A DNA stretch of 64,000 bases from Candidatus Poribacteria bacterium (GCA_022827885.1 JAJEIP010000007.1:62001-126000), one strand, 5' to 3'. Shown: positions 13,976 through 54,624, counted from the stretch's first letter. The notes: generated from the sequence alone by a model not told the origin. A program made the numbers and translations.

Positions 13976-15463
13976 ATGAAAACTTTGTTGAAACCGAACC
14001 TATTTTTCAGCTGCCTCACGGTCCTGCTCTGTTTTGGGATAACCGCGCTCAGTTACGGGCAAGCCGTAGTCTCCGTAGACCCTGCGGAAAGTTCCTCTCC
14101 CGCAGTCGGGCAGCAACTCACGATCCGTCTACACATCAGCAACGGTCAGAACGTTGCAGGCTACGAGGTGGGTGTGAATTTCGATACGAGTGCGTTGCGG
14201 TATGTTTCAGGTAGCAATGGGAGTTATCTGCCGACGGGTGCGTTTTTCGCGCCCCCGCAGGTCTCTGGGGGTAAAGTAACGCTTGCGGCGACCTCTGTCT
14301 CGGGTGCGGCGCGCGCCAGCAGCGGCACGCTCGCGAGCATCACATTTCGAGTGGTGGCTGTCAAAAAGTCGACGCTTCGGTTAACAGGTGTCCTCCTCTC
14401 GGACAGTAATGCCAACGCGCTCAGTGTGTCGGTGAGAAACGGCAGCGTTGTTGAGAGACGTGCGGCGAAATGGGATGTCAACGGCGATGGTCGTGTGAAT
14501 GTGTTGGATCTGACGCGTGTAGCGACGCGTTTAGGGTGGCGGGATGCGAGTGCGGACACCAACGGGGATGGCACGGTGAACGTGTTAGACCTCGTGTTGG
14601 TGGCACAACACCTCGGTGAAACGGTTGGGACGACACCTCCGACTGTGCCGGTAACTCCCGTGACACAGCCGACTGTGCCGAAACCACCGCCTGCCCCTGA
14701 AGGCATGGTGCTGATTCCCGCAGGGGAATTTAAGATGGGCAGCGAGGATGCCGAGGCGCGCCCGAATGAACAGCCGATTCATACGGTGCATGTAGATGCG
14801 TTCTATATGGACACACACGAGGTGACGAACCTGGATTTCAAAAAGTTTGTGCTTGCGAATCCGCAGTGGCAGAAGGATCGTATTCCCAAGGCACTCCACG
14901 ATAGAGCTTACCTGCACGACTGGACGGGTAACAACTATCCGACGGGCAAAGCGAACCATCCGGTGGCGTATGTGAGTTGGTATGCAGCGATGGCTTACGC
15001 TGAGTGGGCAGGGAAGCGTCTGCCGACGGAAGCGGAATGGGAAAAAGCGGCACGTGGCGGCACGTCAGGGTTGAAGTATCCGTGGGGGAACACGATATCC
15101 AGTGGTCGTGCGAACTATGGTTATCATCATGTAGGGGGCGCGCGGAAAGTGGGGAGTTATTCAGCGAACGGTTATGGTCTGTATGATGTATGTGGGAATG
15201 TAGGGGAATGGTGTCTGGATGCGTATGACGCGAATTTCTATTTTTCATCGCCGCGCCGGAATCCGTTGAGTGATGTGAATACGTTGTCGAATGCGAACCT
15301 AATCATAGATGACTATACGAATGTAAAGTCACACCGCGTGCTGCGTGGTGGTTCCTACGGCGGTACAGCCCAAGACGTGCGGGTCGCCCGTCGCGCCGGC
15401 GTTACGCCGACGTTCACACACCAAGGTAACGGGTTTCGTTGTGTGAAGGATGTGGTCCCTTAA
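13976..15463 (+). CDS. Cohesin + type I dockerin + FGE/SUMF-like (formylglycine-generating enzyme family) protein
   Basis: Cohesin segment; dockerin repeats DVNGDGRVNVLDLTRVATRLG / DTNGDGTVNVLDLVLVAQHLG; SUMF fold PEGMVLIPAGEFKMGS...RLPTEAEWEKAARGG...GNVGEW...RVLRGGSY. Confidence 0.9.
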   Translation: MKTLLKPNLFFSCLTVLLCFGITALSYGQAVVSVDPAESSSPAVGQQLTIRLHISNGQNVAGYEVGVNFDTSALRYVSGSNGSYLPTGAFFAPPQVSGGKVTLAATSVSGAARASSGTLASITFRVVAVKKSTLRLTGVLLSDSNANALSVSVRNGSVVERRAAKWDVNGDGRVNVLDLTRVATRLGWRDASADTNGDGTVNVLDLVLVAQHLGETVGTTPPTVPVTPVTQPTVPKPPPAPEGMVLIPAGEFKMGSEDAEARPNEQPIHTVHVDAFYMDTHEVTNLDFKKFVLANPQWQKDRIPKALHDRAYLHDWTGNNYPTGKANHPVAYVSWYAAMAYAEWAGKRLPTEAEWEKAARGGTSGLKYPWGNTISSGRANYGYHHVGGARKVGSYSANGYGLYDVCGNVGEWCLDAYDANFYFSSPRRNPLSDVNTLSNANLIIDDYTNVKSHRVLRGGSYGGTAQDVRVARRAGVTPTFTHQGNGFRCVKDVVP

Positions 15464-18816: not shown

Positions 18817-19881
18817 TCATACACACTCTGCGCCAAGAAGGTGTTCAAGGATGTAGAAGTCCAGACCTTCATAATCTCGGGCTGCGATAAATTCCTGTTC
18901 GACCTCTTTGTCAAACGTTCGAACTTTCTCAAGTAGGTTAAGGAAGGTTCTGCGACTGCTCAATAAGTGTTTTGTTGAGATGTCGCGGGGTTGGGTTCGC
19001 ATGACTTTCACATCTAATCCAATGAATTCGCCGTTTCTACCGTATCCGTTCTCTTCCAGGACCCGTACCTGATTAAAGGCGCGTCGTAAATTAACGGACC
19101 CGAACGCCTTATCTTGATCGAATTTTAACCCATTCTGATCGTTGAGATGGACGCTCCAAAGTTTCTTATGACAGAGCGCGTATCCCATTTCATCGGAGGG
19201 TTCCAAACCTGCGAGAATCGCGTGTGCGCTTTCGATTAACCCGCCCACGCGCTCCGGTGCGTCGCTTGCATAAGCCAAACCAATGGCGTGTCCGATGGTT
19301 GGAATATAAGCGATGTCCATGGGTTCATTCGGTTTGGGTTCTATAAGGATTCGGATTTCCGGATCGTAGTCGAGCAGTGCGTTCATCGCTTCCAAAATTT
19401 GACCAACTGCGCCTGCTGCGTCTTTCGTTTCCCGGATGTAGGTACCTTCTCGGGCAAGCCACAACACGAGATTTTTACACCCGATCTCGTTAGCAATATC
19501 GACACACCTTTTTGAACGTTCCAGGGCATAGTGTCTTTCTTTTTCGGAATTAGAAGTGTAAGCCCCATCAATCGTCTGTGGAGATTCCCACAACCGGGGT
19601 GCCACCACCTCTGCCGTCAAACCGTGGTCGTCAATCTGTTTTTTTACGGCTTTTGTCCGTGCTATCAGTTGTGTATACGTTTTCTCGTCAATATCCGGCA
19701 CAATATCATCATCATGAAATTGAATTCCAACAAAACCGAGATCGCGATAAAATCCAACTTTTTCATCGAAACTGAACGGCTCCCGAACAGGGGGGCCAAA
19801 AGGGTCTGTTCCCTCATGTATATTCCAGGGTCCGAAAGAGAAACAATATTCTGTTGTTTCTTTAAGGGGTTCGCTCATCAT
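18817..19881 (-). CDS. Xylose isomerase-like TIM barrel protein
   Basis: FGPWNIHEGTDPFG, IEPKPNEP, SVHLNDQNG motifs. Confidence 0.9.
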   Translation of the reverse strand: MMSEPLKETTEYCFSFGPWNIHEGTDPFGPPVREPFSFDEKVGFYRDLGFVGIQFHDDDIVPDIDEKTYTQLIARTKAVKKQIDDHGLTAEVVAPRLWESPQTIDGAYTSNSEKERHYALERSKRCVDIANEIGCKNLVLWLAREGTYIRETKDAAGAVGQILEAMNALLDYDPEIRILIEPKPNEPMDIAYIPTIGHAIGLAYASDAPERVGGLIESAHAILAGLEPSDEMGYALCHKKLWSVHLNDQNGLKFDQDKAFGSVNLRRAFNQVRVLEENGYGRNGEFIGLDVKVMRTQPRDISTKHLLSSRRTFLNLLEKVRTFDKEVEQEFIAARDYEGLDFYILEHLLGAECV

Positions 19882-19987: not shown

Positions 19988-20017
19988 TTGACTTTACTAA
20001 TAAGTATAATGTATTAT
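19988..20017 (+). promoter_or_regulatory. Sigma70-like promoter upstream of BamA-fusion gene
   Basis: TTGACT-18 nt-TATTAT. Confidence 0.45.
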
Positions 20018-20105
20018 TTAAAATGTGTCAAGCAATTCTGTAGTCGAGGTTTGCAAACAGATATTGCAAATCAGATATGCTGGATTAAGAAGGAACCTTC
20101 CCAGA

Positions 20106-23100
20106 ATGTTACCCATATCTCGAGCGATTTTCTCTCATGTATATTTATTATATTTTTTCATGCTCACGCTGAACCTATCCATCCAGCATATACATGCAGC
20201 GGACCATGAAGGCACGGGAAGCACTTCCGCGCCATCCGTCAACAATTCGATCCGCGAAGCCCAGACATTGATATTAGGGACACCCTCAACAAAAAACTTC
20301 AGTTTTTTAGATGTTTATCACATAGCACTCAGTCTAAACGTAGCGGGTAATATTGAGCTGATCGCCACAGAGGGGGATGTCATCACCGTTACGCTTGAAA
20401 AGCAGGCACGGAAAACCACAAATACAGAACAGGACGCTCTGATTCGCGACTACCTTGATAGCATCACCTTTACAGGAACGAACAGCGGTGACACACTTCA
20501 GTTAAGGATACAACTCCCCAACAATTCCTCTGAAACACAGCCGAACTCGCTCGCTAATGGGGACGCGTTACCAGCCGCGCGCTATGATGGACTCCAACTG
20601 AAATGTAGAATTAAAACGCCAGCGGATGTCTCCGTTCAGCTCCACACCCAAACCGGAGATATCTCCCTTCAACGTATCCGCGGGAAAATAGAAACTTCGA
20701 CAGAGACAGGGAACGTCCATTTAGATGAAACCGTAGGCAATTATAATGTCCGTGTGACCACGGGTAACATTGACGGGAAGATTTTGCTGACGCATGGACA
20801 AAACAGGTTAGAGACCCAAAACGGCTCAATTGGACTGGAGGTCCTTGACACCGTTGCATCACCGATGGATATAACCGCACAAGCGGGTGGCATCCGTTTA
20901 CGACTTCCTGAAAATTATGCCGCGGATATTGAACTTGAGAGTGAGAAACAGCAGATCGTTGTCAATTTGCCCGCACAATTTGACGAGGCAACGGGATTGA
21001 CCCTTATTAACGAGGGTGGACCGCTGTTTCGTCTGAAAGCCACCAACTTGATTTCACTGCTATCGAGCACATCAAGCAGCAATACATCCACAGATGCTAA
21101 AACGGATCTCGCCATAGATTTCGCGCAACCCGTTCCGCAAGTCGCACAACCGCCTACTATTGACGGAAATTTATCTGAGATCGTGTGGCAAGCCGCCGCG
21201 CCACTCTCTCCACTCCAGAACCCAGATGGCACGGAGGCTCCAAGCAACGCAACTGAAACTTTTTTAATGTGGGATGCCGAGAATTTCTATGTCGGTGTAA
21301 AGGCGCATTTGTCTGATTCGCTGCTTCCGTATGTTTCACAGACTCAGCAGGATTCGCCAATTTGGGAAGACGAGTGTATTGAAATTCTGATTGACCCGAA
21401 TCCGAAAACTGATGTCTATTATCACCTCGTTATTAACCCGATTGGTGCGTATTTTGATCAGCGGGTGAATACCCCTGGAGAGCCGAGTTTCCCGTTCGCG
21501 CCGCATGATGTCCAACTCACTTTAAATCGGAAAACGCTGCAAACGGTATTCAAGGCAGATAGCGCGTGGAATTCAAATGCAAAAGTTGCGAGTCAAATTA
21601 AGGCTACCTTTTGGAGCCTTGAGGTCGCTTTACCGCGTAAAATGTTGGAACCTGCTCCTAAGATGGATCCACAGGCAATGCCCGCTTTTGAAAACAGGTG
21701 GCTTTTTAACATCCATCGTAAAATGCACAGTAGTAACATGAAGAGTCTCATCCGTGCTACGTCCCGAGAATATAGTTATTGGCTGCCGATTTACGATACC
21801 GAGCGTCCGTGGTGGCCCCACACGCCACAAGAGTATACGGGCCCGCTTGCCGGACGCTATGGTCCAGCAATGGGAATTTTGGAATTCATTACGACACCAC
21901 TCGCTGCTGAAAACTTCGCATCCGAAACGAAGGTCCGGGTTGCGACTATTGAGATCAAAGGTAACACCACTATTTCGACAGAGGCGATTCAACAGACCCT
22001 CCCGATTCAGGTTGAAGATGTTATCACAAGTTCACAACTTTCTTGGCTCATCGCAGAATTACGGGAACAGGGTTGGTTCCAAGAGGTGCGTTTGGAAACT
22101 CAGCAAGTCGATGTTGGCAGTGAAGAACCTACCAGCGGCCAGCAAGCGACTGGGAGACAAGTTCGGAAGGAGAGAAGACTGACAGCTGGGGGAAATCAGC
22201 CAATTTTCCCTTCTTTCAACCGTCCAATCAATTTGCATATCCGGGTTACGGAAGCCCCCGTGCTTTTTGCGGAGCAAATTAAGATCGAAGGGAACAGGAG
22301 TTTTCCTTCGCGATTCATCAAGGACTGGTTTCAGTTAGAATCCGGCTATCTTGCGGTTGCTGTTGTTAGATTGAAAGAACGATTAATTGCTGATTTTTAC
22401 GCAAATCGTGGATATGAATTCGCCACTGTTACGCATCGAATTGACAACGATGCCCTTGAATTTAGCATTGACGAGGGGACACTGCACGAGATTCGTTTCA
22501 CTGGGAACAGTCGAATCCCGCGGGCGGAACTGCTGTCGGCACTTAACCTCAGCACCGGAAATGGTGATGGCGCAGGAGGTTCACAAGCCTCGGATATTTA
22601 CCATCACGCGCTGGGTCAATCGAAGATAAACGGTCTGCGCCAGGAACTCAGCAAAAGCAGTGAGCATTTCAAATCGGTTCGGAATTGGCATGTTCAACGT
22701 GAGGGTGGAAAAAACGTCATGATTATTGACATCGAAGAGCAGCCGTTCGCGAGACCCGGTGGTTTCCCGATTCTTCAATTCAATCGTGTTCACGGATTAA
22801 TGCTTGGCGCGGGAGGGACCCTCTCAACGCAGCTTACGGGTCAAGAACGGGTTTTCGGCTCAATAAGTGGTGGATTTTCCAGCAAAATATGGAACTACCA
22901 CGCCGGTATCGAGAAAGGGTTCTTTAAACGGCAGCTGCTCAAATTCGGAGGAGGTTTCTATAAACTCACGGATGTCAGTTCTAATCTCTATCTACATCAA
23001 GGTGAGGCTTCTCTGAGTGCCAGCTATTATGGTTCAGCACTTCAGGATTATTATCAACGTCAAGGCGCGCAGGGATGGGTAACTTACGCGCCATCAGAGT

Positions 23101-23879
23101 GGTCGTATCTTAAACTGGAGTTTACTGGAGAAAGACACGACAACCTGTCCAAATCTACGGATTGGAGTTACTTAAACCGCAATCTAATCAAGCGGGGAAA
23201 CTCACGGATTAATCGTGGACAATTGCGGAGTCTTTCCCTCGTTTATGCGTTCGATACACGAGACCACAGATCGACTATCACACGGCATTTCCATACGCTG
23301 TTTTCTGCGAATGAGCGGACTCGGCGGGGATGGCGCGGTCAATTCGCAGTTGAAATAGCCGGGAACAGTTTCGGTGGGGACCATGCCTTCAATTTCTATC
23401 GGTTTGAGTTGACACGCTACACGCCTATATCCGGCTCACACCATCTGAATGTGCGGATTGCGGGTGATTTTTCCGATGCACCCTTGCCAAGGCAACGGCT
23501 CCTTCACCTTGGAGGTGGGAACACCCTGCGCGGTCACTATTCTAATGTATTCGCTGGGGACAATCGGCTCCTGATTAACTTGGAGTATCGGCTCATCAAA
23601 GAAACAATTCCCAATGAACAAGACGGTGTCCTGGGGTGGAGCCTCAGTTGTTTCTTGGATGCGGGTCGTGTGTGGTGGTATGATGATGCCCCTTTTTCTG
23701 ACCTTGAATATTTCATGACCCAGTTGGAGGCATCTGTTGGGGTTGGATGCTCCATCTTTTGGGATCCTTTCGGGAATCCTGAACCGTTGAGTGTTGCCCT
23801 TGAAGTGGCAGAACCCCTTAATTCATCTTTTTCTTTACGAAATCCGAGCATCACTTTACGTTTAGGACGCATGTTCTAA
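20106..23879 (+). CDS. Outer-membrane fusion protein: DUF4097-like + CBM9/DOMON-like + POTRA repeats + BamA/D15 beta-barrel
   Basis: DUF4097-like TQTGDISLQRIRGKIETSTETGNVHL; CBM9-like PPTIDGNLSEIVWQAAAPLS; POTRA TIEIKGNTTISTEAI and IKIEGNRSFPSRFI; barrel with LGGGNTLRGHYSNVFAGDNRLLINLEYR. Confidence 0.85.
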   Translation: MLPISRAIFSHVYLLYFFMLTLNLSIQHIHAADHEGTGSTSAPSVNNSIREAQTLILGTPSTKNFSFLDVYHIALSLNVAGNIELIATEGDVITVTLEKQARKTTNTEQDALIRDYLDSITFTGTNSGDTLQLRIQLPNNSSETQPNSLANGDALPAARYDGLQLKCRIKTPADVSVQLHTQTGDISLQRIRGKIETSTETGNVHLDETVGNYNVRVTTGNIDGKILLTHGQNRLETQNGSIGLEVLDTVASPMDITAQAGGIRLRLPENYAADIELESEKQQIVVNLPAQFDEATGLTLINEGGPLFRLKATNLISLLSSTSSSNTSTDAKTDLAIDFAQPVPQVAQPPTIDGNLSEIVWQAAAPLSPLQNPDGTEAPSNATETFLMWDAENFYVGVKAHLSDSLLPYVSQTQQDSPIWEDECIEILIDPNPKTDVYYHLVINPIGAYFDQRVNTPGEPSFPFAPHDVQLTLNRKTLQTVFKADSAWNSNAKVASQIKATFWSLEVALPRKMLEPAPKMDPQAMPAFENRWLFNIHRKMHSSNMKSLIRATSREYSYWLPIYDTERPWWPHTPQEYTGPLAGRYGPAMGILEFITTPLAAENFASETKVRVATIEIKGNTTISTEAIQQTLPIQVEDVITSSQLSWLIAELREQGWFQEVRLETQQVDVGSEEPTSGQQATGRQVRKERRLTAGGNQPIFPSFNRPINLHIRVTEAPVLFAEQIKIEGNRSFPSRFIKDWFQLESGYLAVAVVRLKERLIADFYANRGYEFATVTHRIDNDALEFSIDEGTLHEIRFTGNSRIPRAELLSALNLSTGNGDGAGGSQASDIYHHALGQSKINGLRQELSKSSEHFKSVRNWHVQREGGKNVMIIDIEEQPFARPGGFPILQFNRVHGLMLGAGGTLSTQLTGQERVFGSISGGFSSKIWNYHAGIEKGFFKRQLLKFGGGFYKLTDVSSNLYLHQGEASLSASYYGSALQDYYQRQGAQGWVTYAPSEWSYLKLEFTGERHDNLSKSTDWSYLNRNLIKRGNSRINRGQLRSLSLVYAFDTRDHRSTITRHFHTLFSANERTRRGWRGQFAVEIAGNSFGGDHAFNFYRFELTRYTPISGSHHLNVRIAGDFSDAPLPRQRLLHLGGGNTLRGHYSNVFAGDNRLLINLEYRLIKETIPNEQDGVLGWSLSCFLDAGRVWWYDDAPFSDLEYFMTQLEASVGVGCSIFWDPFGNPEPLSVALEVAEPLNSSFSLRNPSITLRLGRMF

Positions 23880-39189: not shown

Positions 39190-40281
39190 GTGATAACCAA
39201 AATGATGAAAGCGTTTATTCGGTTACCCATTTTTTTCTCAACATTACTTCTATTCTATAGTGTTGGTTGCCAATCCATGCCTCTAATGGCGGAGGAATCG
39301 ATTTTGGAAAAGATTGAAAGGACATATAGCGTCAAGGCCGGTGGAAATTTAACCATTGTGTCGGAGTTCGGGGCAATTGAAGTGGAAACCGCTGACCAGA
39401 ATCACGTTGAGATTGTCGTCACAAAAGCAGCAAAGTCGTTGAACCGATCAGCGAAAGAAGCACTTGCCGATTTTGAGGTCGCATTCTCGCCCGAGGATAC
39501 CGATGTCCATATTGAGGGTAGGTTCAAACAGGGACGAGAACGTTGGCGCAAAATACTGAATCGCTTGAAAATTCGTTTCCACGTGACGGTCCCCAAAGCC
39601 TATAACGTTGATTTGGAAACCCAAGGCGGTAGTATCAAAGGCGGCGATCTGGACGGTACAGTTCGCGCCCATACCTCGGGAGGGAGTTTACGTTTCGGGA
39701 ACATTACAGGAACGGTCTGGGGGCGGACATCCGGTGGTAGCATTGAACTTACATCGTGTGGCAGTCGAGTCGATCTGAAAACATCTGGCGGCAGTATTGA
39801 AGTCGTTGATGTCGCCGGTGATGTCCAGGCACAAACTTCTGGGGGTAGCCTCCGCTTCGGTGCGATTCAGGGTTCTATTTGGGGCAAAACATCTGGCGGC
39901 AGCATCAGGGTTGCGAGGTGTAGCGGAGGGGCAGATGTGCAGACCTCTGGTGGTAGCATCAGGCTACAGAGCATCGGTGGCGATGTAAATGCCAAAACTT
40001 CGGGAGGCTCCATCCATGCCGTTACGAAAACACAACTCCAAGATGCGTGTAATTTACGCACATCGGGCGGTGGGATAACTGTCACGCTGATCCCAGATAT
40101 CGCGATTAACGTAGATGCCGAAACCAGCGGCGGACGCGTCTCAACGGATTTTGCGGTGGCATCGCTTATCCAAGGGAAGGTTCCCAGAAATAGATTGAAA
40201 GGTAGCATCAATGGTGGCGGTCCCTTACTGAAATTGCACACCTCTGGTGGGAACATCCACTTGCAAAAGGCATCAGATTAA
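39190..40281 (+). CDS. DUF4097-like beta-repeat lipoprotein
   Basis: Lipobox-like SVGC; repeated TSGGS-[LI]-R/E-x motifs about every 20 residues. Confidence 0.85.
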   Translation: MITKMMKAFIRLPIFFSTLLLFYSVGCQSMPLMAEESILEKIERTYSVKAGGNLTIVSEFGAIEVETADQNHVEIVVTKAAKSLNRSAKEALADFEVAFSPEDTDVHIEGRFKQGRERWRKILNRLKIRFHVTVPKAYNVDLETQGGSIKGGDLDGTVRAHTSGGSLRFGNITGTVWGRTSGGSIELTSCGSRVDLKTSGGSIEVVDVAGDVQAQTSGGSLRFGAIQGSIWGKTSGGSIRVARCSGGADVQTSGGSIRLQSIGGDVNAKTSGGSIHAVTKTQLQDACNLRTSGGGITVTLIPDIAINVDAETSGGRVSTDFAVASLIQGKVPRNRLKGSINGGGPLLKLHTSGGNIHLQKASD

Positions 40282-42295: not shown

Positions 42296-44248
42296 TTAAA
42301 AGGTTCGCTCTTGACCATAGAAAATTCGAGGTTTCAACGACAGGGTAAAGGGTGGATCAAGTGGGAAGGCGAACTCTACCCGAAGGATACCTGTCCCACT
42401 AAACTGAGAAAGGCTTCCACGCAGTCCAAACCCAACGCTTCGTTTCGGTCTTAGTAAATTGAAGGTGCGTGTGCCGTTCCAAATATATCCAATATCTGCA
42501 AAGACAACGCCACTCAATATAACGCCGAGATGCACGCGTCTGTCGCTAAACGGACGCGCCACAGATGTTGCAACCGCTGCCAGTCCTTCGTCTATTTTTC
42601 GGAAAACGGTTCCACCGAATATCGTTCGGCTTTCAAGACTCAGCAGCATCATCTTTTCACCACTAAACTGCCGATAGGCGTAGCCGCGTAGCCCATCGAA
42701 CGCCCCCAAAAGCACCTGACTGCGTCCACTCCATCCAAACTGCATTTCCGTTTTAAACTGCATGACAAACGTCTGATGAAAATCGAAGAGGCCGTTTTCT
42801 CTAAAACCGGCTTCAAGTGTATAGATATCACCTGTGTCGAATACATCTGTATAAAACCAAGCCGTTTGTGTTTGGAGTACGGAACGTTCAATCCGGCTCG
42901 TAAAGTTCGTGCTAAATGCCAATGTTGTCAAGTTAAAGAGCTTACTTCCGTTCATCCATCCGGATGCCAAAGCCAGTTCGGCGTAAGATTCTGCGCGGTC
43001 AGAGGCATATACAGGTGAAGCATATCCCAGCGAAAGCGCGTATTGAGAGCCGATAAGAAAATTTTCCTCTTGCCCCATTCGTCGGAGAAATCGGGTTTTG
43101 TGATACGCAATACGCTGTCTCCCTAAGGTGAATCCGATCCGTTTTATGTCTCGGTTCTCTAACATTGCAGTGGATCCGCTTGATTTTTCAAGCAGCACGT
43201 ATTTTGAACGTCGTGAAGCCGTCCATAACCCTATATAATTCTGTTGCTGTCTGTCTCCGAAATATCGTCGGACGTTTGCAAAGGTTCCCTGTAAATTTTG
43301 TTCAAACGTATCGGTTTTCTTCGCGTTTTCATACCAATATATCGGATTCACCGATTCAGAAAAACGCACACTTGCACTCCATCGGCTTTTCAGCGTATAT
43401 TGAGGACGTTCTAACAGCACAACCAAAGAATCGCCTTCCCGTTTCTGGATATATTCACCATCAAAGTTCCAGTGCGAATTGAAGAGGCGCGGGTTATTAT
43501 ACCGCCCTCTCACGAGGCTCCGCGTCTTTTCACCGACTTCGCTAATCCTTTCGTAACGCCACAGCGTGCCTTGCCCCGATCCAAACATGTTCGGATCTCG
43601 AAACTGTAGGAGCCAATACCGCTTTTGGTTATTTAGGTTCAGATCCCCTCCAAATGGAAAGGACAAGAGTTCCCTAATAGTGGCGCGAATCGTAACGGAT
43701 TTGGACAGCTCATCCCACTGTGCGTCAACTTTAGCAGCACCAATATAAGTCTTGCGGCGGAGGATCTGTTCGCTTTCCTCTCTATCCGCTTCTGTGTAGA
43801 TATCCCCTGGCATAAACAGGAGTTCTCGACGGACAACGTCCTCTTTCGTCTGTATATTGCCAGTTACGATGATGTTGCCGACACGCCCTTCATCAATTTC
43901 AATGCCGAGATAAACCCCGTCCGCGAATTTCTTCACAGAGAGTTGCGCTTCATCCACACGTGCGAAACGGTACCCGTTTTCCCGATAAAAGCGCGTAATC
44001 GCTGCAAGGTCGGATTTCAGAACGGATTCATCATAAGTACTCCACACATCCGTCTGCATTAGTGCGCGGATTTGTTGTTCAGAGAACGATTCGTTTCCAT
44101 CAATGACGAGGCTCCGTACAATATTAGTTTCATCAATGAAGGTTGGCTGACCAACAGCCTGACCGCCGACGGCTATCTTGCTGATACCCAGCAAAACGAT
44201 TAAGTACACAGTCCCCAACAGGCGCGTGACATATAAAAAACCTGCCAT
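42296..44248 (-). CDS. POTRA + BamA/TamA-like outer membrane protein
   Basis: RSLVIDGNESFSEQQIRALMQTD; YRENGYRFARVDEAQLSV; IIVTGNIQTKEDVVRRELLFMPGDIY; C-terminal barrel. Confidence 0.88.
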   Translation of the reverse strand: MAGFLYVTRLLGTVYLIVLLGISKIAVGGQAVGQPTFIDETNIVRSLVIDGNESFSEQQIRALMQTDVWSTYDESVLKSDLAAITRFYRENGYRFARVDEAQLSVKKFADGVYLGIEIDEGRVGNIIVTGNIQTKEDVVRRELLFMPGDIYTEADREESEQILRRKTYIGAAKVDAQWDELSKSVTIRATIRELLSFPFGGDLNLNNQKRYWLLQFRDPNMFGSGQGTLWRYERISEVGEKTRSLVRGRYNNPRLFNSHWNFDGEYIQKREGDSLVVLLERPQYTLKSRWSASVRFSESVNPIYWYENAKKTDTFEQNLQGTFANVRRYFGDRQQQNYIGLWTASRRSKYVLLEKSSGSTAMLENRDIKRIGFTLGRQRIAYHKTRFLRRMGQEENFLIGSQYALSLGYASPVYASDRAESYAELALASGWMNGSKLFNLTTLAFSTNFTSRIERSVLQTQTAWFYTDVFDTGDIYTLEAGFRENGLFDFHQTFVMQFKTEMQFGWSGRSQVLLGAFDGLRGYAYRQFSGEKMMLLSLESRTIFGGTVFRKIDEGLAAVATSVARPFSDRRVHLGVILSGVVFADIGYIWNGTRTFNLLRPKRSVGFGLRGSLSQFSGTGILRVEFAFPLDPPFTLSLKPRIFYGQERTF

Positions 44249-46518
44249 TATGATTCACCTACGGTCAGTGCCCTTTCACGATTCGAGAGAAAACTTTCAA
44301 GCAACATAAGACAGATGACGAAAATAAGCAATTCCCCCCAAATCTCCCTACCGTGTCGCTTAACGTTGTAGGCATCAGCCGCCTCCGGTGTTTCCCCGAT
44401 TTCCGGATCTGCTGTTGTTTTCGCACCAATCCGTGCCGCCACCTGTGATAGTGGAATCTCCGTTAAGTCAGCTTCAGTCGTATCCACATTAACAGCAAAA
44501 AAGTCGCGTCGGATTCTGTCCTGTGTTCGCACCTCGACCTGATAGATACCCGGACGTTCCGTGTCTTGAAAGCGTAGTGTGCCATCTTCGGCAATCGGAA
44601 CGACTGTGGAAGGGTTCTCCGTCTTCGGTCCTTGGTCTTCGGTGAAGCGGTTTTCATTTAACGAAGGTTCCGGCTCGTGATCGGTAATTGATAACTGGTA
44701 ACTGATAATCGCCTTCCCACCTGCGCCCCTCGGGTAGTGTGCTGTATAGGTATCCCCGACATGCCCGCCCCATGTTAAAATATTATTGCTGGCTATTGCG
44801 GCGTAAAGTACACTTTGTTGAAGTATCGGAAGGAAATACGGATTAACAAACAGATCGTTAGGCGTAAGTGACGCTTCTAACCCCGATTTCATAGACGTGG
44901 TCGCCTGTTGCGCGAGTAAACCACAGTTATAGAGGAGCACGGCACTTGTTCCTTGACTTCGTTCAATGAGAAAGGGTGTATCATCTCCGAAACGTGCGAT
45001 AACGTTAGATTCCGACGCCGGCTGCAGTGCTATGCCGTTGTAAAACTGCGGGGCGTATTGCATAGAGAATCCTTCGCTTGGAAAGATGTCGAAAATAGGA
45101 TGTGTTTCTCGGTATGCCTGCACTCGTTCGGGTGGGACCCAGGTTAGCGGATTCCCAAGTCGGGCAGGTAACCAAGCATTCTGAGATTGATTGTAACTTG
45201 TGGGGTCGCTGTGAGCACTCACGAAGGCAATGATACTTTTGCCTTGGCGGATGAATTCTTGAAGTTGTACACTCATTTGAAGCGACAGGGTCTTTACGTC
45301 CGCAAGGACAATAACATCATAGTCTTCCAAGGGAAAGGTTTCAAATTCACCGGGTGTGCATTGCGTTGGTAGAATCGCGCGCGCCTCCATAGACTTGCGG
45401 GACAATGTATTAGAATAATTACCAGTTAAAGAGGACTCTGGTTCAACCGACAGCTGCCCCCTATAAATATGTGGATTTAATGCCAACGTTAGATATTCCG
45501 TTTGTTCGCCTACACAGAGTACGCGGACTTCACCGAGGGCATCCCAGGCGAAATAACGATGGTTGTCGATATTAAGGCGATCATCCGTGAGTGTGAGGTA
45601 ACCGATATGCGTGCCGGGCGTCGAAAAGTTGTATGTTAGCGCGGTGTTCAGCGATTCGTTCGCTGCCGCAGAAAGGCTCATGGTTTTTTGTTTCTCGCCT
45701 CCAATAAAAAGTGTGAGTATATTTTCGTTCAAAGGTGCTACCGAATGGTTCACAGTCGTCACGTTCAATTGAAATGGTAAATCTACGCCTATTAGTTGAT
45801 TGGACGGACGAATTTCTTTAATACTTATGTTATGTGCCTCACCCTCTGCCACTGGAATCAGAGAAATACGTGCGCCCGATCGATTCGGAAGTCTATTCCA
45901 GTTCTCCCATCCGTTTCGAGCGAAGTCCGAGACCAAATAGATTTCTTTGTTCAGTTGCTCTGATTCAGCAAGGATTTCGTGGGCGAGTTCAAGGCTGGGC
46001 TGCACATTCGTAGTGCGATAGGAAGTTTCTGTATCGTTAATCGCTTCGGTGACACTCTCAATGTCGGGTGTGAGTTGCCGAAAAACAGGTGTCGGGATGT
46101 CTGACATTAATATGAGGGCGGCTCTATCGCCATGGCGCAAAGTGTCAATGATGTCAGTCGCCAGCGTTTTCGCTTTGTCGAATCTGACGCCATTGATGTC
46201 TTGATACGCCATACTGTAAGAGTTATCTAAAACGACAACGACATCCGTCTTTGCCCGCACAGACGCGACCGGGAGTCCGAGTGTCAAGAACGGACGTGCC
46301 AAGGCGAGTGCGATGAGCGCGATAATTGCCATTCTCAGGAGTAAAATGAGAAACTGACGGAGCTGGAATCGGCGGGCATTTTCGCGGTGTGCAGCGGTGA
46401 TGAATATCAGACTGCTAAAGTCGATTGTCACAACACGACGACGGTTCCAGAGGTGAATGACTAAGGGGATACCAGCAGCAAGGAGTCCAAAGAGGAAAAA
46501 TGGGTTGAGAAATGCCAA
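44248..46518 (-). CDS. BatA N-terminal domain + VWA protein (DUF4159/glutamine amidotransferase-like middle)
   Basis: MAFLNPFFLFGLLAAGIPLVIHLWNRRR; VVVVLDNSYSMAYQD; C-terminal TM; TAATG coupling to next gene. Confidence 0.9.
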   Translation of the reverse strand: MAFLNPFFLFGLLAAGIPLVIHLWNRRRVVTIDFSSLIFITAAHRENARRFQLRQFLILLLRMAIIALIALALARPFLTLGLPVASVRAKTDVVVVLDNSYSMAYQDINGVRFDKAKTLATDIIDTLRHGDRAALILMSDIPTPVFRQLTPDIESVTEAINDTETSYRTTNVQPSLELAHEILAESEQLNKEIYLVSDFARNGWENWNRLPNRSGARISLIPVAEGEAHNISIKEIRPSNQLIGVDLPFQLNVTTVNHSVAPLNENILTLFIGGEKQKTMSLSAAANESLNTALTYNFSTPGTHIGYLTLTDDRLNIDNHRYFAWDALGEVRVLCVGEQTEYLTLALNPHIYRGQLSVEPESSLTGNYSNTLSRKSMEARAILPTQCTPGEFETFPLEDYDVIVLADVKTLSLQMSVQLQEFIRQGKSIIAFVSAHSDPTSYNQSQNAWLPARLGNPLTWVPPERVQAYRETHPIFDIFPSEGFSMQYAPQFYNGIALQPASESNVIARFGDDTPFLIERSQGTSAVLLYNCGLLAQQATTSMKSGLEASLTPNDLFVNPYFLPILQQSVLYAAIASNNILTWGGHVGDTYTAHYPRGAGGKAIISYQLSITDHEPEPSLNENRFTEDQGPKTENPSTVVPIAEDGTLRFQDTERPGIYQVEVRTQDRIRRDFFAVNVDTTEADLTEIPLSQVAARIGAKTTADPEIGETPEAADAYNVKRHGREIWGELLIFVICLMLLESFLSNRERALTVGES
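44606..44711. repeat. TCAGTT-type repeat insert inside VWA CDS
   Basis: minus strand ...ATTATCAGTTACCAGTTATCAATTACCGATCACG...; encodes ISYQLSITDHEPEPSLNENRFTEDQGPKTENPST. Confidence 0.5.
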
Positions 46519-52374: not shown

Positions 52375-54624
52375 CTATAGATTATAAAGATACGTCACTT
52401 TGATGACAATGACACGGTTTTCCAGTTGTAACTCGCGAGCGGGAGCTGTTCCAACAGTTGCATCGCCCCACGTTTCGTTATATGCAACGAAAAGGTGACT
52501 TTTTGGACTATATTCCCACCCAAAGAGAAGACTTAGCAGATACGTCTGATGAATTTCCATAGAAACGGAGCGTTCCCTATTGGCTTGCGTGAACAGCCGG
52601 AGAAACGATTCTCGCGTGAAGAGGTAAGTCGTCCGCAATGAACTGACGAAAAACCGACCGTCAATTGCCCCTTCCAAATTAAAACTCTGGGCGTAGCCGC
52701 TGTCCAATTCTATGGACAAATTGCTCCGTGGCCGGATAGTGGACTCCAGCAGGAGGCTCCGCTGTTTGCCCGCTTGTTGTCGTCTAAAGTTAAAATAGTC
52801 AGCGAAATCTACACCGATACCGATAGCAACCGGTTTTGTGGAATCGGTATCCATCTCAAACCCGTATCTGTCCGCCGTAAATACCTCTGTGAGTTCAACT
52901 TCCCGACTTCGGTCATAGTACACCGTGATGTCATCCAAGAGAATTTCCCTGAAATCCATCCCAATATTCGCACCAGCACTCCATTTGAACAGATCTTCAT
53001 CAAATTCCGGCGATAGGGACAACTCCGGATTCCGTTCTCTCCATTCCGCAAAATACGCGGGTGTATAGAGACTTTGAGAGAGACGAGCGATTAGACCCGA
53101 AAAAAATTGGTGCTTTCCCCAGTGTGGGGAATAGGAACTTCGCATAGAGACGCGTTGCCAACCACGATTGCGTTCCTTTCGGAGAAACCCTGTCTGATTA
53201 ATTTCAAAGTTCGGCGCGACCCGTTCAAACCCAATGTCGCTGCTCCAGAGATAGTTGCGCTGTGCGAAATCAACCGTCCACGCAAAGTTATCACTATCCT
53301 CACCCGGATGGAAACTCCCGGCGTATTGTCCCGTGAGGTGATACGTTTTGCCCAAAGCGAGGTTCATATCAATACCCCCCACTCGGCTATGATTCCATCC
53401 CTCACTCCCCGGCTGCTCCTTGTTCACGAATAGAACGCCAACGTTGGAACGTTTGAGGATGTCGCGTTTCACACGGATTGCGGAGAACCATGCCTGCTCC
53501 TTTTCGGACGGGGTGCTCTCGGAAAACCTGAATTCACCGGTTTGGTTTCCCAAGACGCCAACGGAGTAGTTCCCGACTTTTCCTGTAAGTTTACCCCCCC
53601 AGAGAATATTACCACGACTCCCGATACGGCGGCTGAACATCAGGTCGTAAGGCGTTTCAAAGAAACTGTTGCCTTCGACAAAAAACGGGCGTTTTTCAGG
53701 AAAACGCGTCGGGAATCGGGTCAGATTAATCTCTAATTGGTCTGCTTCAACCTGGGCGAAGTCAGGATTGACCGTAACGTTCGCCTTTAGTGCACTCGTG
53801 AGGCTGTATTGTACATCCAAACCCGTTCCGAGCTGGCGTGTGAAATCGGCATCGGTGGCACCCATACCACCGCCTAAGAGATAGGGCGAGATTTCAAAAT
53901 TTTTTCCGGTCTCGATGTCCCGAATGCCTACAATGTGTCCTAAATCAGACATTCGCGTGACAACACCGGCTTGTGTGAGCTGTTTCCACACCGTAACCTC
54001 GCTTTTCCGGCGGTTGACTCGCTCAATATCGAACCCCCAAATCTGTGTTGGTCCAGATTTATGTGAGAAGTCGGTGAACCGGAAGTTTGCGAACGGAATT
54101 TTAAACTCGGCACTCCATCCGAGTTCATCAATATTGCTTTCAACCCACCAAATGCCTTTCCAGTTGCTGTCGCGTTGGGTGTCTTCGTACCGGTAGTTAT
54201 CACTCTGGACCCCCGCTGGATTTGTGGCGAATTTATAGCCTGTGCGGTGGTCATGATGTGGATCGATGAAGAAGGAGATGACATCCGAGGCATAGAGGTC
54301 GCCGCGTCGCGTCATCCGGTTGATAATTTTATTCGGTTCTGCATCGTAACATCGGAATGCGATGTAAATGTTATGCACATCGTAAGCGATGCGAAATTCT
54401 GTGTCGTCCGTTGCGGGATTCCCGCGTGACGGTTCGAGCTGAATAAAACCGCTTTGCGGTTCTGCGTTCTCCCACACGGCATCGTCCAGTATCCCGTCAA
54501 TTCGCGGAGGTTCGCCTACAATTCGGTAGGCTTCAACGACATGTTCACCCACGCCTTCTGGGTGCGCAAAAAGGTATAGTGGATAGGCAATGAATAGCAG
54601 TAGGGCAACTACGAATTTTGGCAT
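52375..54624 (-). CDS. CBM9-like + DUF5916 outer-membrane-type protein
   Basis: EPPRIDGILDDAVWENAEPQSGFIQLEPSRGNPATDDTEFRIAYD; RFPEKRPFFVEGNSFFETPYDLMFSRRIG. Confidence 0.92.
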   Translation of the reverse strand: MPKFVVALLLFIAYPLYLFAHPEGVGEHVVEAYRIVGEPPRIDGILDDAVWENAEPQSGFIQLEPSRGNPATDDTEFRIAYDVHNIYIAFRCYDAEPNKIINRMTRRGDLYASDVISFFIDPHHDHRTGYKFATNPAGVQSDNYRYEDTQRDSNWKGIWWVESNIDELGWSAEFKIPFANFRFTDFSHKSGPTQIWGFDIERVNRRKSEVTVWKQLTQAGVVTRMSDLGHIVGIRDIETGKNFEISPYLLGGGMGATDADFTRQLGTGLDVQYSLTSALKANVTVNPDFAQVEADQLEINLTRFPTRFPEKRPFFVEGNSFFETPYDLMFSRRIGSRGNILWGGKLTGKVGNYSVGVLGNQTGEFRFSESTPSEKEQAWFSAIRVKRDILKRSNVGVLFVNKEQPGSEGWNHSRVGGIDMNLALGKTYHLTGQYAGSFHPGEDSDNFAWTVDFAQRNYLWSSDIGFERVAPNFEINQTGFLRKERNRGWQRVSMRSSYSPHWGKHQFFSGLIARLSQSLYTPAYFAEWRERNPELSLSPEFDEDLFKWSAGANIGMDFREILLDDITVYYDRSREVELTEVFTADRYGFEMDTDSTKPVAIGIGVDFADYFNFRRQQAGKQRSLLLESTIRPRSNLSIELDSGYAQSFNLEGAIDGRFFVSSLRTTYLFTRESFLRLFTQANRERSVSMEIHQTYLLSLLFGWEYSPKSHLFVAYNETWGDATVGTAPARELQLENRVIVIKVTYLYNL

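Follow-up and report, generated by a model that had tools for sequence, protein, structure and literature searches.

A toastrack-CBM9-POTRA-Omp85 fusion protein of Candidatus Poribacteria and its paralogues in ECF sigma operons

Omp85 proteins build the outer membranes of bacteria, mitochondria, and chloroplasts. Within this superfamily, TamA is accessory to BamA. Heinz and Lithgow (2014) recognised Omp85 subfamilies with non-canonical N-terminal fusions, namely, WD40, patatin, metallo, and lipo (PMC4104836). In the patatin-Omp85 (type Vd) protein PlpD, the N-terminal domain is exclusively periplasmic (PMC11116518). LiaG and other toastrack proteins of PSP systems are linked to envelope stress and are predicted to be intracellular (PMC11237479).

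We analysed a stretch of 64,000 nucleotides from a Candidatus Poribacteria bacterium (GCA_022827885.1, JAJEIP010000007.1:62001-126000), hereafter the window, which encodes a protein with an N-terminal toastrack (DUF4097) domain, a CBM9 domain, three POTRAs, and a BamA-type barrel. The protein shares with BamA the order of POTRAs and Omp85 barrel, the loop-6 and DxG motifs, the C-terminal Phe, and fold matches over POTRAs and barrel; however, it has three POTRAs instead of five, and the toastrack and CBM9 are added. TamA also combines three POTRAs with an Omp85 barrel, but the window gene is not near TamB, and its product has extra N-terminal domains. PlpD resembles it in that a single polypeptide carries a globular domain, not itself a POTRA, ahead of POTRA and barrel, whereas the window protein has no patatin, three POTRAs, and two different N-terminal folds. 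Its toastrack belongs to the same beta-helix domain family as the PSP toastracks. Unlike them, it follows a signal sequence and shares a polypeptide with an outer-membrane barrel, and its putative periplasmic placement is noteworthy because the PSP proteins are predicted to be intracellular. The CBM9-DUF5916 proteins, a common Poribacterial type (e.g. window 52378–54624, minus strand), also fuse CBM9 to what is taken to be an outer-membrane barrel. They differ in having DUF5916 in place of POTRA-Omp85, and their CBM9 shares only about 23% identity with that of the window protein. The 2014 survey lists no subfamily with a toastrack, DUF4252, or CBM (PMC4104836), and we found no described Omp85 subfamily or architecture with this layout in the open-access literature. 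The statement in a preliminary description of this DNA that no characterised Omp85 protein has such a periplasmic layout agrees with this survey.

Domain architecture of the window protein

The gene (20106–23879, plus strand) is a single unbroken reading frame from an ATG at 20106 to a stop codon at 23877–23879, and it encodes 1257 residues. A GTG at 20025 lies in frame upstream. The ATG was taken as the start because the open frames of three relatives (L045–L047) begin precisely at the aligned position and because a possible ribosome binding site, AAGGA (20090–20094, plus strand), was recognised by eye 11 nt upstream. Judged from hydropathy and visual inspection, the protein begins with a Sec-type signal sequence (MLPISRAIFSHVYLLYFFMLTLNLSIQHIHA-A; residues about 1–33, 20106–20204), and the relatives also have hydrophobic N-termini; no lipobox cysteine was seen in this region. 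The start and the signal peptide, whose confirmation the preliminary description called for, are both supported.

Domains were assigned by a Pfam scan with curated cut-offs and by a fold search against the PDB with VIA-align. The AlphaFold2 model used for the latter covers residues 58–1257 and was built without a deep alignment; its confidence is moderate (mean pLDDT of 55 for the whole, 58.6 for CBM9 modeled by itself, and 82–92 in the toastrack core). The whole-protein TM-scores are low because the arrangement of the domains is uncertain in the model. The toastrack domain (residues about 58–320, 20277–21065) was identified both by its profile (DUF4097, residues 75–281, 29.5 bits against a cut-off of 22.9) and by its beta-helix fold, since residues 58–298 match the toastrack structures 3lyc (Z 13.9), 4qrk (Z 13.2), 3pet, and 4opw (Z 13–14). 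It is not a LiaG equivalog (NF049997, 32.2 bits against 285). A single further DUF4097 protein was detected in the genome, a secreted toastrack of 363 residues with a repeated TSGGSI motif (window 39190–40281, plus strand).

The CBM9 domain (residues 338–606, 21117–21923) scores 31.5 bits against a cut-off of 23.4 for CBM9_1 at residues 352–440. In the model of residues 58–1257, it resembles 7nwn (Z 12.6). When folded alone, it matches the cellobiose complex of Thermotoga maritima CBM9 (1i82) with Z 15.4 over 170 residues at 2.7 Å; the match spans the whole domain, and unrelated rows lie near Z 6. The modeled beta-sandwich is therefore complete. Within the motif SPIWEDECIEIL (residues 417–428, 21354–21389), a Trp and a Glu of T. 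maritima CBM9, which we take to bind the sugar, have W420 and E426 as their aligned counterparts.

Residues 608–880 match the POTRAs of E. coli YaeT (2qcz, Z 12.4). Pfam detects POTRA_1 at residues 611–665 (27.3 bits against 23) and POTRA in three stretches (63.9 bits against 21.3), and the strand order in the model also gives three repeats: the FtsQ-type POTRA A (residues about 609–716, 21930–22253), POTRA B (about 719–789, 22260–22472), and POTRA C (about 795–876, 22488–22733). The beta2-beta3 hairpin of POTRA A carries a hypervariable loop (residues about 674–712, 22125–22241). The barrel (residues about 885–1257, 22758–23876) matches Omp85 (PF01103) at residues 1031–1214 (32.8 bits against 24) and resembles BamA and Sam50 barrels (Z 13–14; 8xnb, Z 13.8), with a pLDDT mostly below 60. 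Alignment of relatives located LRGH (residues 1141–1144, 23526–23537) and FLDAG (residues 1183–1187, 23652–23666), the counterparts of the loop-6 RGF/RGY-type motif and the DxG barrel motif of Omp85. LRGH/LRGY, FLD(A/T)G, and the C-terminal Phe are kept in most of the 41 aligned relatives. The barrel profile, the POTRAs that precede the barrel, and the two motifs place the protein in the Omp85 superfamily. Pfam cut-offs and PDB fold matches concur throughout, including for CBM9 and POTRA, so that the four-part architecture first proposed for this frame holds in its order and coordinates.

The window protein is neither of the canonical family members. Against the BamA equivalog TIGR03303 (NCBIfam), it scores 71.4 bits, below the cut-off of 297.15, while another protein of the same genome (L001) reaches 402.7 bits; its identity as BamA was thus rejected. 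TamA was rejected because the only TamB match of the genome (C144:93617) lies about 2.6 kb from a different Omp85 (L002, C144:96957). The Pfam scan found no patatin domain in the window protein, which is therefore not a patatin-Omp85 such as PlpD. Since the genome already has both a canonical BamA and a TamB-linked Omp85, the window protein is a further, non-canonical Omp85. The genome also encodes a three-POTRA Omp85 (L003) and two barrels of the DUF4252 lineage on contig C137.

Several other proteins were noted. A frame of 650 residues at 42299–44248 (minus strand) of the window carries two POTRAs, its C-terminus is Omp85-like (LRGY and ADIG) but missed by the Pfam Omp85 profile, and it abuts a BatA/VWA gene at 44251–46518. 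Elsewhere in the genome, a single protein (L088:7489–10344, minus strand) joins Peptidase_MA, a WD40/PD40 propeller, and an Omp85 barrel. Omp85 barrels alternate with PA14-domain proteins on C137 (L087) and in L091. The window also contains cohesin, dockerin, and FGE-sulfatase domains in one frame (13976–15463, plus strand) and a type ISP restriction-modification enzyme (27756–30881, plus strand) 3' of TAtT-DctP genes.

Distribution and selection in the phylum

An alignment-based search covered 84 genomes of the phylum Candidatus Poribacteria. The same architecture, from toastrack to barrel, was found as one long frame in 73 of them, with a few frames ending at a contig edge. The gene is split across contigs in three genomes, and the five remaining genomes are assemblies that are less than 90% complete. 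Three genomes of family f3 (L081–L083) encode a form of 650–695 residues in which the toastrack (DUF4097) is joined to the barrel without CBM9 and POTRAs. The long form also occurs in two genomes inside the phylum and outside the class. A scan of 84,980 species genomes with the window protein, which reaches close relatives only, returned Poribacteria and one Lentisphaerae genome, in which the match is confined to the CBM9 part.

Judging by dN/dS between close relatives (about 0.1–0.25 in each domain and about 0.13–0.18 in CBM9), purifying selection acts on all of the domains. The hypervariable loop evolves in a near-neutral manner (dN/dS about 0.6–1). Gene order around the gene is conserved within the genus and not beyond. 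A comparison of neighbourhoods revealed no conserved operon partner beyond the genus, except for a GcvT-like neighbour that is also kept in family f2. With conservation largely limited to the genus, the neighbouring genes do not point to a partner protein.

Paralogues, ECF sigma operons, and promoters

In a quick tree of the barrels, which has some long branches, the nearest paralogues are barrels of the DUF4252 and C137 types, which form one clade with strong support, and the DUF4252 paralogues group with the window family and not with BamA. One subclade comprises DUF4252-CBM9-Omp85 proteins, which carry DUF4252 in place of the toastrack. Their gene is the last after those for an ECF sigma factor, a zf-HC2 anti-sigma factor, and often a lone DUF4252 protein. 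Eleven genomes from two genera have this operon, one of them with an incomplete sigma frame, and the gene ends in the ECF sigma/anti-sigma/DUF4252 operons mostly overlap. No sigma or anti-sigma neighbour lies beside the window gene, whereas the DUF4252 paralogues have the pair.

The end of the operon varies. A DUF4252-DUF5694 protein (Pfam) is encoded there in L127 and, by the fourth gene, in the genome of the window itself (L126); L128 and L129 are similar in length and order. Genome G041 has a DUF4252-toastrack fusion (L131) at the same position, and in G047 a DUF4252-barrel protein (L132) is encoded further along the operon. Because DUF5694, a toastrack, or an Omp85 can stand behind the same DUF4252 module in this operon, and because DUF4252 and a toastrack are fused in G041, the two domains look like exchangeable periplasmic modules tied to ECF signalling. 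DUF4252 genes of P. gingivalis occur in co-upregulated runs with sigma-70 genes (PMC10101095).

The CBM9 of the paralogues is 48–61% identical to that of the CBM9-DUF5916 proteins, whose genes adjoin the operon in some genomes, whereas its identity to the CBM9s of the window family is only about 22–30%. A single ancestral CBM9-Omp85 fusion for both lineages is therefore unlikely, and CBM9 has probably joined Omp85 barrels at least twice, independently in the DUF4252 paralogues. The repeated pairing argues that the combination is useful, for a purpose that it does not specify.

ECF sigma factors are also found in other fusions. In a frame of 404 residues (L090:643–1854, minus strand), an FtsZ/tubulin GTPase domain is fused with regions 2 and 4 of an ECF sigma factor. 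Three further ECF sigma fusions, with BNR/sortilin-type propellers (about 1000 residues) or an M16 peptidase as partners, lie near Omp85 clusters of the DUF4252 lineage (L087:2475–5600, L091:1709–4693, and L089:109–2685, all on the plus strand).

The window gene and its divergent neighbour (18817–19881) share a block conserved in the genus, with sigma70-like consensus matches on both strands: TTGACT-18-TATTAT for the window gene (19988–20017, plus strand) and the overlapping TTGACA-17-TATACT for the neighbour (20003–20031, minus strand). The number of such matches is near chance, so the reading as sigma70-like promoters rests on conservation. The sigma operons share the upstream motif TGCAAC...TTTGTAGT, which looks like an autoregulated ECF promoter. 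This motif was not found within the window, and an ECF-type promoter for the window gene was rejected. As the sigma70-like block is present and the ECF-like motif is absent, the window gene is probably expressed in a housekeeping manner, outside the regulon of the sigma operons.

Possible functions of the protein

In the reading that we prefer, and whose chances we put at about even, the window protein is an accessory outer-membrane assembly or translocation factor. It would be exported by Sec, with the C-terminal BamA-type barrel in the outer membrane and the three POTRAs, CBM9, and the N-terminal toastrack extending into the periplasm as one long arm; this location is inferred from the topology of Omp85 proteins and the precedent of PlpD (PMC11116518). 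It would act on outer-membrane or surface proteins, apart from BamA and the TamB-linked Omp85. Substrate would be received by the POTRAs and then inserted or threaded by the barrel, and docking of the toastrack-CBM9 arm onto an envelope glycan or partner proteins would set where or when the barrel works. Housekeeping expression, as read from the sigma70-like matches in the conserved block, counts in favour of an assembly factor, as do the agreement of profiles and folds on all four parts, the retained Omp85 motifs and C-terminal Phe, the single long frame in 73 genomes, the purifying selection, and the presence of a separate BamA and a TamB-linked Omp85. However, family f3 has neither CBM9 nor POTRAs, and these parts are therefore not strictly needed for the role of its barrel. 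The low confidence of the modeled barrel and the lack of a partner among the neighbours also count against this reading, and PlpD suggests that an Omp85 scaffold can also be put to uses besides assembly.

It is possible, though we hold it only tentatively, that CBM9 and the toastrack are structural spacers or protein-protein docking folds without glycan binding, which would be compatible with an assembly factor. The Trp of the sugar-site motif is replaced by Gly in L068 and is also replaced in L076, L079, and L080, in which last three Pfam detects no CBM9; CBM9 is degenerate and the motif decayed in the deepest-branching members. However, nearly all other members of the family retain the Trp and the Glu, and the selection on CBM9 is strongly purifying. 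The preliminary description had proposed a substrate- or glycan-sensing Omp85. This proposal is only partly supported, by the complete CBM9 fold and the alignment of W420 and E426, and the sensing idea gains independent support from the sigma/anti-sigma operons around the paralogues; the motif fails in the deepest members, and the toastrack-barrel proteins of f3 have neither CBM9 nor POTRAs. Glycan sensing is a plausible hypothesis.

TonB-dependent transducers serve cell-surface signalling, and an Omp85 barrel may have been recruited in a similar manner. The barrel would then be a scaffold, and the toastrack-CBM9 sensor would report the state of the outer membrane or of a glycan to an ECF sigma/anti-sigma pair. 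This is the main rival to the assembly factor, but we consider it doubtful for the window protein, although the position of the paralogues at the end of the sigma operons, the toastrack fusion at that place in G041, the grouping of the paralogues with the window family in the barrel tree, the ECF-autoregulation-like motif, and the P. gingivalis gene runs all point to signalling. Against signalling, the window gene lacks sigma and anti-sigma neighbours, the window contains no ECF-like motif and the gene has sigma70-like matches instead, and the operon in its own genome ends in DUF4252-DUF5694 and not in an Omp85. The general form of this idea seems unlikely: Poribacterial Omp85 barrels would serve cell-surface signalling as TonB-dependent transducers do in other bacteria, a periplasmic toastrack or DUF4252 module together with CBM9 would sense the state of the outer membrane or of a glycan and control the ECF sigma factor through the zf-HC2 anti-sigma factor, and the window protein would belong to this family as its unlinked member found throughout the phylum.

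A type Vd-like display, in which toastrack and CBM9 are a passenger carried to the surface by their own barrel to bind glycans of the host sponge, is improbable. The order of passenger, POTRA, and barrel is reminiscent of how PlpD was originally viewed, a sugar-binding passenger would be consistent with a complete CBM9 fold, and Poribacteria are associated with sponges (PMC6081418). However, the passenger of PlpD proved to be periplasmic (PMC11116518), the window protein has three POTRAs and not one, and the link between toastrack and anti-sigma operon in the phylum argues for a periplasmic role. Finally, an artefact of assembly or annotation, in which separate genes were joined by a sequencing error or a chimeric contig, can practically be dismissed, as can the assembly fusion considered in the preliminary description: nothing in its favour was found, and the same single frame occurs across the phylum in independent assemblies, including the single-contig genomes G010, G022, G028, and G044.

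What is new here, besides the window protein, is the set of DUF4252 paralogues, with a CBM9 that was probably acquired independently, at the end of a conserved ECF sigma/zf-HC2 anti-sigma/DUF4252 operon. Nearly all sponge-associated Poribacteria keep the window protein, and its paralogues of similar layout lie next to genes for an envelope-stress switch, which hints that outer-membrane barrels are wired to sensing in these bacteria. A toastrack-CBM9 Omp85 throughout the phylum, together with paralogues in ECF operons, suggests a concrete connection, accessible to experiment, between a scaffold for outer-membrane assembly and the control of transcription.
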